A stretch of DNA of 64,000 bases, taken from Magnetococcales bacterium. Lineage in GTDB: Bacteria > Pseudomonadota > Magnetococcia > Magnetococcales > JADFZT01. The notes below the pieces were generated by a model. That model ran no database searches. It was given only the letters and a program-made list of their open reading frames with translations, and had not been told where the DNA came from. The first letter of the stretch is position 1. Each line of letters starts with the position of its first letter. The translations under genes were made by a program, and so were the position numbers. The DNA is taken from contig JADFZT010000004.1 of the NCBI GenBank assembly GCA_015232395.1, positions 3,030 to 67,029 of the forward strand, written 5' to 3'. Positions 6,537 to 8,784 of the stretch are shown here, piece after piece.

Positions 6537-6707
6537 TCAGGCGGCTGAGAACACTTCATCATTTTCCGCTTCCAGCTCTCCCTCCAACATTTCGTGGAGT
6601 TCACAGGCAACGGCATAGTCTTGAATGCCCTGAATCAGAGCCTGATGTTGTTGGTCGTCAAACACAGTATAACCGTTATCTTCTATGTCGATATGTAAGC
6701 GTTCCAT
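6537..6707 (-). CDS. Small acidic hypothetical protein
   Basis: A 56-aa protein, acidic throughout (EDNG, EMLEGELEAENDE), without Cys, membrane segment or a known motif. The start at 6707 is supported by a strong site, AAAGGAG, 7 bases before the ATG; an upstream in-frame ATG lacks one. The family is not recognised. It could be a small regulator or an antitoxin-like protein, but no partner toxin is adjacent. Confidence 0.6.
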   Translation of the reverse strand: MERLHIDIEDNGYTVFDDQQHQALIQGIQDYAVACELHEMLEGELEAENDEVFSAA

Positions 6708-6784
6708 AGTTTTCTCCTTTTCCAGTGTCGCAAAGCCTTTCAAAGGCTCTCTCCGGCTCCGGAATTTTGCTTCTCAGAGAGTTT

Positions 6785-7176
6785 TAGTTTCGGACAACAA
6801 CTGCCCTTAGGGTAATTCGACACGGGACTTTGAGGAAAGTTTCTTTGATTATGAGAAACCAACAGGGATAAACAGGGTGAATCCCGGATAAGTGCTTCAT
6901 TTTGTGTCTATAAATTATCAGACAAAAAAAATGGTTCGATGTTGGATAAGCCCCTTTTTCCACCGTGCTGGCACGCCCTAGAGAAGCCAATCAAAGTTGT
7001 CAAAGCCAAGGCTGAAATGATGGTTCCAAAAGCACCGAAACAGGGTGCTGAGTGAACCCGGAAAGTGAATGCAAAAAAAGGGCCGGGTAGGGTGTCAGGC
7101 TGGGCACAGAGAGGGGGATGGTTGAGGGGGATGGCTGGGTAGGAAAGGTGAATGGGCTGAAAGGAGGTTGGGGCGT
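6785..7176. other. Gene-free stretch
   Basis: Only short frames without ribosome sites occur here; the longest is a 68-aa minus-strand frame of random-looking composition. No hairpins or repeats stand out before the MITE begins. Confidence 0.6.
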
Positions 7177-7181
7177 TTTAA

Positions 7182-7344
7182 CCTAAATCCGGCAGTTGGG
7201 CGTGTGTGGCTGGTGCAGGATATTGGTTCGCATAGTGAATTGGGAGAAATCGCTGTCACCTTATTGGTCACAAGACTTTTTCCCGATTTGCTTGGTGGAT
7301 CAAGAGGCTGGGGCATGTACGTACGCCCAACTGCCGGATTTAGG
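7182..7344. mobile_element. MITE-like non-autonomous transposable element
   Basis: A 163-bp element bounded by perfect 22-bp terminal inverted repeats: 7182-7203, starting CCTAAATCC and ending GGGCGT, and its exact reverse complement at 7323-7344. The element is flanked on both sides by TTTAA (7177-7181 and 7345-7349), a 5-bp target duplication. The interior codes for nothing recognisable. The CC ends and 4-5-bp duplication are compatible with IS1380-type elements, but that assignment is tentative. No other copy and no matching transposase are in the window. Confidence 0.85.
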
Positions 7345-7354
7345 TTTAACAGTC

Positions 7355-7474
7355 GGAGACCAGGGCAGAGTGGATAAAGAGCGGGTAAAACACGTCGAGT
7401 TCAGTGCAACATGACCCCTCTGATGGGGGAAAAAGGGACTCTTTTTTTTGGAACTGTGCTTCGGTGACAGCCAT
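7355..7474 (-). pseudogene. Decayed transposase N-terminal fragment (IS5-like)
   Basis: The minus-strand translation begins MAVTEAQFQKKESLFP, and after a frameshift continues in another frame as FPHQRGHVALNS. Both parts resemble the N-terminus of IS5-type DDE transposases (TEAQFxKIExxFPxxRGxV). It then decays and abuts the right edge of the MITE. A second, diverged copy of the same segment is at 8785-8913. Family assignment is from memory of the motif. No catalytic DDE region remains. Confidence 0.5.
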
Positions 7475-7733
7475 AAGGACATCACATGTGGCGTGAACAC
7501 GAACCAAAGCAGTCGTTCCAGTCAAAAATGGGGCGTAGGCCATGGCTCTTTTTCTGTCATGCCTGGGGATGGGGAAACCCAGGGTATCTGGCACCAGATT
7601 GTCCAAACCTTGAGCCGCTTTCAATCAAAATATCAGCATCCTGAAGATTTGGTTTTTTCTTGAGGGCCGCCATGATCTCCCTGGGTTTCCGTTTTCAGAG
7701 TGAAGCTTGCAGACCAGGTTCTGATAGCGTGGG

Positions 7734-8516
7734 TTAATCGAGAGGCTCTGAAGGATCTATTGTGCCATCCTGAGGGACCTCCACCGGGGCCTGCTCCCGA
7801 ACCGGCTCCGTCTCACCATCGGTTGTGGAGCCGGAATCGGGCCCGCTGGGGGTGGTGGTTTCCTGTCCAGGGGTGACAATGCCCTCCTGTCCACCCGCTG
7901 ATGGGGCCATCTCACCACTCCCAGGTCCATGATAATCCACCGTGGTTTGGGGGGCGCTGCCATCGGTAATGACCACTTCCTCATCCTGATCAAGCTTGTC
8001 ATAGTCGATGGCTGCGGCGTCCTCTTCAATAGCGCTGGCTTCCAGGGCGGCCTTCTCCTCGGCAGAGCTGTTTTCCTCCCCACTCCCGCTGGGTTGCTGT
8101 CCGGTATGGGTCGCTTCGTGATCAAGCATCTGCGTTCCACCGGAGGAACTGCCACTGCCGACGAATTCACGCCCATCTTGAATGGATCCCTCACCACCAC
8201 CGTCATGGGCCAAACCGCCATCACCCAGAGGATCCATCCCTTGGCTCACATTGGCCCCCCCCCATTCTCCGGTCTCACCAATGCCTTCCCCGCTTCCATC
8301 CAGCCCACCCAAACCCTCTCCCTGGGATAAGGCGTCACCATCAGCAGAGCCCTCCATATCTCCTGGAGAGGAGGAAAAGGGTGATGAGCCATTGGTCGGA
8401 TCGGTTTCGACGCCCGCCAGTGCCGATCCCAAATCTCCTCCCAACATCCCCGGTGCAATCCGGTCTTCCAACTTAATGGCTTGTCCGCCTCCCACCTTCT
8501 TCTTTTTCTTGCCCAT
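7734..8516 (-). CDS. Acidic Gly/Ser-rich protein with N-terminal LEDRIAP motif
   Basis: A 260-aa low-complexity protein. It starts with a basic patch (MGKKKKK), then IKLEDRIAPGMLGGDLGSAL, then about 230 residues dominated by Gly, Ser, Asp, Glu, Thr and Pro with almost no hydrophobic stretches and no Cys. Start 8516 has GGGGAG 8 bases upstream. The short LEDRIAP-like motif resembles the LExR(I/M)-type segment near the N-terminus of some very large bacterial surface proteins and adhesins. Here no repeat domains follow, so it may be a stub or a stand-alone disordered protein. Function unknown. It lies between two transposase remnants. Confidence 0.65.
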   Translation of the reverse strand: MGKKKKKVGGGQAIKLEDRIAPGMLGGDLGSALAGVETDPTNGSSPFSSSPGDMEGSADGDALSQGEGLGGLDGSGEGIGETGEWGGANVSQGMDPLGDGGLAHDGGGEGSIQDGREFVGSGSSSGGTQMLDHEATHTGQQPSGSGEENSSAEEKAALEASAIEEDAAAIDYDKLDQDEEVVITDGSAPQTTVDYHGPGSGEMAPSAGGQEGIVTPGQETTTPSGPDSGSTTDGETEPVREQAPVEVPQDGTIDPSEPLD

Positions 8517-8784
8517 GGATAAACTCCCCACATGTTAATGATTGTTATCGAATATCGTAGATATTATTCAATATATCACATAGGGATGCCAGGATGTGGC
8601 GTTAATCAAAGCCGTGAGTGTGATGGCCAAATATCCTGCAAAAACGGTCATATATGGCTCTCATACCGCCCTCGTTGTGGATTGCCGTCATGGACACAAC
8701 GGCAGTTTCTTCCGTTGAATTGACCACATATTCATAAAATCGATCAGGGTGTGTTAACCCGGTTTGATGCATCGAAGAGCAGAG

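Follow-up and report, generated by a model that had tools for sequence, protein, structure and literature searches.

Palindromic elements that proteins can accommodate were initially presented as a speciality of Rickettsia, and were later also described from Wolbachia and among some enterobacterial miniature inverted-repeat transposable elements (MITEs). In the portions of the literature cited here, Rickettsia palindromic elements (RPEs) and Wolbachia palindromic elements are mobile palindromes of approximately 100–150 bp that form a long stem-loop and contain a conserved open frame, and RPEs insert in-frame into unrelated conserved genes (PMC10969869, PMC2229807, PMC4224334). YPAL/RU-2 of Yersinia and ERIC/RU-1 of enterobacteria are described, in the part of the source drawn on, as small palindromic MITEs with target duplications, stem-loop transcripts, and in-frame gene fusions, and a length of 168 bp and a 56-amino-acid frame are given for YPAL (PMC2229807). 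The same part describes the Correia/NEMIS elements of Neisseria as 107–155 bp in length, with inverted ends of more than 20 bp and hairpin transcripts that are cut by RNase III (PMC2229807). The MITE-like bcr1 element of the Bacillus cereus group is present in high copy number with a TTTAT motif at the element, and occurs in mRNAs (PMC3446304, PMC6542083).

The element described here resides in a window (the whole stretch of DNA analysed, 64,000 nucleotides) from the genome of a magnetotactic-type bacterium placed in the Magnetococcales. In the open-access literature, no paper was found on Magnetococcales miniature inverted-repeat transposable elements, and none, by title, on Magnetococcales palindromic elements or magnetotactic-bacterial inverted-repeat MITEs; judged from the open-access literature alone, the family is unreported in print, while elements of its kind are already known.

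The window copy and its family

The perfect 22-bp inverted ends and the TTTAA at both flanks, which had been proposed in a first-pass annotation of the window, are confirmed (Table 1). The length of 163 bp given there is also correct, but it is that of the whole element including its ends and not of a core bounded by them, as the stretch between the 22-bp ends measures 119 bp. The description of this DNA as non-coding holds in that the element has no visible gene of its own, but one minus-strand frame is open throughout. The earlier account contained neither the full-length RNA hairpin and its conservation from one family to another nor the open frame and the copies placed in-frame within genes. 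The window copy, three bases away from the own-genome consensus, lies 772 bp downstream of a gene encoding an AcrB-type transporter. A scan around the copy found no promoter- or terminator-like sites, the hairpin is not followed by a T-run, and a search of Rfam with window positions 6700–7900 gave no match above the gathering score, the sole hit elsewhere in that region being at chance level (E 0.2). A 265-amino-acid open frame on the minus strand (window 7734–8531), rich in G, S, D, and E and with no Pfam match, adjoins the element.

Table 1. Features of the window copy, short derivatives, and copies inside genes (window positions unless a locus is named)
Feature	Position or locus	Strand	Basis or remark
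Whole element, 163 bp	7182–7344	+	+ strand predicted as one hairpin end to end; fold and other copies
Left terminal inverted repeat, 22 bp, CCTAAATCCGGCAGTTGGGCGT	7182–7203	+	read in the sequence
Right terminal inverted repeat, 22 bp	7323–7344	-	exact reverse complement of the left; read in the sequence
Target duplication, left copy, 5 bp, TTTAA	7177–7181	.	read in the sequence; commonest in the family
Target duplication, right copy, 5 bp, TTTAA	7345–7349	.	read in the sequence
Apical part of the hairpin, best conserved, AAATCGCTGTCACCTTATTGGTCACAAGACTTT	7247–7279	+	near-invariant alignment columns 66–98
Open frame, 54 codons	7182–7343	-	frame used by the in-gene copies
Short end-only derivatives	L109 248–299; L054 3469–3518; L147 7373–7429; L061 3477–3518; L141 1641–1688
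GluQ-type tRNA synthetase	L131		in-frame insert; relatives in G027, G022, and G008 lack exactly these 56 residues
Ser/Thr kinase, G017	L193 1611–2594		in-frame insert; uninterrupted in G030, G008, and G000
Ser/Thr kinase, G027	L236 989–2017		in-frame insert at a site other than that of L193; uninterrupted in G030, G008, and G000
TPR-GT41 protein	L237		element of 139 bp, TTTAA at each side
Nitrite/sulphite reductase	L196		TTAAA at each side; frame and Pfam
Hsp20 protein with N-terminal hydrophobic segment	L198		frame and Pfam

The own genome (4.94 Mb, 170 contigs) contains approximately 40 full or partial copies with 75–100% identity, namely the window copy and 39 further places at 75–98% identity, which are listed in the same strand sense and some of which are truncated by contig ends. 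The first 18 bases of the end match 81 times in this genome with at most two mismatches, and the reversed control pattern does not match at all; the copy number and this control thus argue that the inverted repeat of the window is not due to chance. A one-strand profile yielded 148 places, from which 98 distinct full-length copies were obtained (36 from the own genome and 62 from others). Exact 5-bp target duplications flank 69 of these 98 copies, 29 of the 36 in the own genome and 40 of the 62 elsewhere. The second base is T and the fourth is A in every one of the 69 duplications, of which 68 conform to WTNAW, with TTTAA (25), TTAAA (12), and ATTAT (9) among them. Two copies in the own genome are identical in sequence at different sites, which, together with the duplications and the near-consensus window copy, points to a MITE family with fairly recent activity; transposition with target duplication, and its recency, had both been asserted in the first-pass annotation. 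The absence of other copies and of empty sites had been named there as grounds for rejecting this view; instead, copies are many, and uninterrupted orthologues are found in related genomes for two of the gene families with in-gene copies, the GluQ-type synthetase and the kinase. The element, which is short and multicopy, lacks a transposase, and has inverted repeats, target duplications, and empty sites for in-gene copies, is a MITE.

The comparison genomes were taken from the host's order, but from families other than that of the window. A DNA search matched 8 of 41 genomes, including the own genome, and a profile of the open frame found the family in 10 of 48 genomes of the order, with 445 matches in total. 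When the named genome collection was searched with a 25-base core pattern, 55 stretches matched, and 53 of these belong to Magnetococcales MAGs. The remaining two comprise a full copy on a short contig of a Nitrospinota MAG (L114 78–240), which is near-identical to a Magnetococcales subfamily, and a full copy with TTTAA at each side in a Zetaproteobacteria MAG (L139 2708–2869); these represent either horizontal spread or mis-binned contigs, and the Nitrospinota contig is possibly mis-binned. The inverted ends are conserved across copies, and short derivatives of 42–57 bp retain only the two ends and have 5-bp duplications (Table 1). At one place in the own genome (L027 2006–2200, contig C93), a further fragment of the end lies after a copy, between two TTTAA, an arrangement that suggests tandem copies and a deletion. 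At another (L051 1466–1645, contig C64), the remnant of an IS1380 transposase stops at TTGAA, and 14 bases of element end come next, which would fit a copy that entered the insertion sequence and was later deleted.

Hairpin and open frame

The + strand of the window element is predicted to fold over its full length with −96.7 kcal/mol (z −12.4, equalled by none of 200 shuffles), against −64.7 for the minus strand. The + strand is the more stable in all 98 full-length copies, with means of −91.7 and −58.6. Covariation was assessed on an alignment of 94 copies (A1), from which four of the 98 rows had been left out as truncated or very weak (L036, L039, one of L144, and L096); 92 of its rows were distinct, and 72 pairs were considered under a rule that treats G-U and A-C equally. 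In the consensus hairpin, 90.7% of cells are paired, and 41 of the 72 pairs show changes on both sides. The cells changed on both sides number 593, compared with 226 (sd 15) in 500 shuffles, none of which reached 593, and with at most 140 in slid versions; such counts are inflated by kinship, and the same sequences served to derive the structure, but the slid control still differs by a factor of four. RNAalifold alone gives 41 pairs, 27 of them with changes on both sides. As judged from this alignment, the hairpin is conserved between families through heavy compensatory change, and the centre of the element, not the ends alone, is best conserved across families.

The two strands can be distinguished by their non-Watson–Crick pairs. 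In 31 representatives with less than 90% identity, under a pairing rule that again treats G-U and A-C equally, the + strand contains 363 G-U and 77 A-C pairs, some of the G-U pairs being shared by ancestry, and G-U is in excess in 30 of the 31; only in L066, an almost perfect palindrome, are A-C and G-U about equal (3 and 4). Among the singleton mutations of 27 young own-genome copies, changes from Watson–Crick to G-U and to A-C each occur ten times, indicating an even mutational input. In pair columns that are mostly Watson–Crick, the minority cells comprise 183 G-U and 67 A-C, and nine pair columns are mostly G-U, with none mostly A-C. Given symmetric mutations, the simplest reading of the G-U excess is that selection acts on the folded + strand RNA in the element lineages that keep moving. 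Copies are mostly intergenic, and the gene 5′ of the element runs in the same direction as the + strand in 50 of the 80 copies with usable neighbours (simple ORF calls), which weakly favours read-through into the + strand.

The element and one 5-bp duplication together amount to 168 bp, a multiple of three corresponding to 56 codons. A single minus-strand frame lacks stops in 69 of the 94 copies (28 of 34 in the own genome and 41 of 60 in others), and the other five frames mostly contain stops. Among the matches listed, a stop interrupts this frame in the G045 copies and in most G008 copies. A comparison of variability between codon positions gave no significant periodicity (permutation p 0.27), and a random frame of such composition is open with a probability of about 0.13, so that an ancestor with one of its six frames open would be unremarkable. 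The present data do not allow conservation of the peptide to be told apart from that of the hairpin.

Copies inside genes

In a survey of 25 loci chosen for long open frames or genes, the element frame was found in-frame within a Pfam-recognised gene at six loci, representing five kinds of gene (Table 1). The six do not include L194, L195, L197, L199, and L238, which are N-terminal or adjacent frames, or L192, L239, and short frames, which were set aside; the open frame at L035 was likewise not counted, as it has no Pfam match. In-gene copies are few, six against 445 matches in ten genomes. The two kinases belong to two species of one genus and are interrupted at two sites, one of which adjoins the catalytic loop. 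In the G017 kinase, the insert lies between HRDIKPGNII and KISDFG, and 58 residues separate the aligned segments, compared with 2 in PknB (3f61). A search of six genomes for the reductase yielded no close relative.

The coding strand is the weaker-folding strand in every in-gene copy. Young-looking in-gene copies retain both hairpin and frame, while the insert in the G027 kinase, the oldest-looking of these copies, no longer has a hairpin (coding strand z −0.4), with its 54 codons still open. These gene pairs suggest that a DNA parasite can end up within a protein, with some 56 in-frame residues contributed to genes of related species.

Mobilisation, alternative explanations, and related systems

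An active partner elsewhere in the genome, as predicted in the first-pass annotation, did not emerge from the transposase families and loci searched: no autonomous element with the MITE ends (CCTRRATYCGGCAGTTG) was found near the 4 PF13701, 5 IS1380 (NF033539), and 9 PF01609 places of the own genome, and inverted end pairs 0.5–4 kb apart with duplications, in the loci scanned, were only those of neighbouring copies. Where a contig matched a single end, the place turned out to hold a partial copy, a short copy, or a lone end; no transposase gene was recognised there, the proteins being judged without Pfam. Many MITEs have no known autonomous partner, and its absence therefore limits the claim of mechanism and not that of kind. 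Mobilisation of the element, as an IS1380-family derivative, by an IS1380 transposase of the type encoded on contig C92 appears doubtful. This contig encodes a fragment of such a transposase with an end, CCTGAATCCG, just upstream, whose first ten bases are common to variant MITE ends (CCTGAATCCGGCAG), and the target duplications of 4–5 bp made by IS1380 elements are compatible with those seen here. However, the two ends differ from base 11 onward (TGACT against GCAGT), other IS1380 genes here have different ends, and four of the eight genomes searched have no IS1380 match, including G027 with its 86 element matches; the resemblance of the C92 end is only a lead.

The window feature is most probably a copy of a Magnetococcales MITE family, the + strand of which is selected as a hairpin RNA and the 168-bp stop-free footprint of which is tolerable in genes. 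Such an element would move by cut-and-paste or copy-out through a DDE transposase acting in trans, and its + strand would be transcribed mostly by read-through from neighbouring genes, yielding an RNA selected to fold as a long hairpin that probably serves as a processing or stability signal, by analogy with NEMIS and ERIC. Given a frame without stops and a footprint of 168 bp, a gene entered in the right orientation and phase would gain 56 amino acids and not be destroyed, as with the Rickettsia elements. It is unlikely that the palindrome is simply a DNA-level by-product of a plain MITE, formed by internal deletion of an insertion sequence or by arm-to-arm conversion, with RNA and frame irrelevant. 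Inverted ends, duplications, and copy number would fit such an origin, and the terminal-only derivatives imply that the centre may be dispensable for movement or easily lost, but DNA pairing or conversion predicts perfect arms with equal G-U and A-C, against the asymmetry observed under symmetric mutational input, and it is the centre that is best conserved across families. Neither a cruciform nor conversion of the arms at the DNA level predicts the G-U/A-C asymmetry.

A primary role for the minus-strand 54-amino-acid peptide, as in an RPE-like segment, with the hairpin following from it, seems improbable. The frequency of the open frame in own and other copies, the in-frame copies in six genes, and the oldest-looking kinase insert, where the codons outlast the hairpin, are what such a role would lead one to expect; the lack of codon periodicity, the stops in the G008 and G045 subfamilies, the intergenic location of most copies, and the unremarkable odds of one open frame in six all speak against it. 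Highly improbable is a host-beneficial regulatory RNA (a terminator, a riboswitch-like RNA, or an RNase III site) spread by duplication and not as a transposon: the conserved RNA structure and the mostly intergenic location agree with it, but it is largely refuted by the target duplications and empty sites, the interrupted genes are unrelated and uninterrupted in relatives, no conserved gene neighbourhood was noted, and both an Rfam match and a T-run after the hairpin are missing. The MITE with a selected + strand RNA is retained, and may tentatively be extended to a two-sided element, in which the + strand would be selected as an RNA hairpin and the minus strand with the duplication would be kept as a less-folding 56-codon cassette. 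The host might then survive insertions between genes as well as, for one orientation and phase out of six, insertions within them, and the in-gene copies would form a series from young to domesticated, ending with the G027 kinase.

What is unusual here is the measured RNA constraint on one strand, together with pairs of genes with and without the insert in related species. An unrelated host order, many copies, and the same gene in both states open two long-standing questions to testing: why the MITEs of bacteria form hairpins over their entire length, for which the wobble asymmetry points to selection on the RNA of one strand, and whether proteins can acquire new internal segments from mobile DNA, as in the kinase insert at two sites in two species.

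Among known systems, the RPEs are closest in behaviour, a likeness drawn from published descriptions: both are full-length palindromes with a stem-loop, and both insert in-frame into unrelated conserved genes. The hosts belong to different orders, Magnetococcales here and Rickettsiales for the RPEs. The present element has clear 5-bp WTNAW duplications, whereas the table in the portion of the source cited gives the RPE target duplication as “?” (PMC2229807), and it is mostly intergenic, whereas nearly half of the first-reported RPEs lie in genes, according to the part of the report cited (PMC10969869). With YPAL and ERIC it shares, again by description, the form of a small palindromic MITE with target duplications and an in-gene open frame, but its inverted ends are 22 bp, compared with 7 bp in the cited part of the account of YPAL/RU-2 and ERIC/RU-1 (PMC2229807), and its core pattern occurs only in Magnetococcales, one Nitrospinota record, and one Zetaproteobacteria record (genome_contigs). 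Long inverted ends and a hairpin, known for the present element from predicted folds, are shared with Correia/NEMIS, which in the portion cited has a terminal TA in place of the WTNAW duplication (PMC2229807). The bcr1 element is confined to the B. cereus group, and a mechanism resembling site-specific recombination has been suggested for it.
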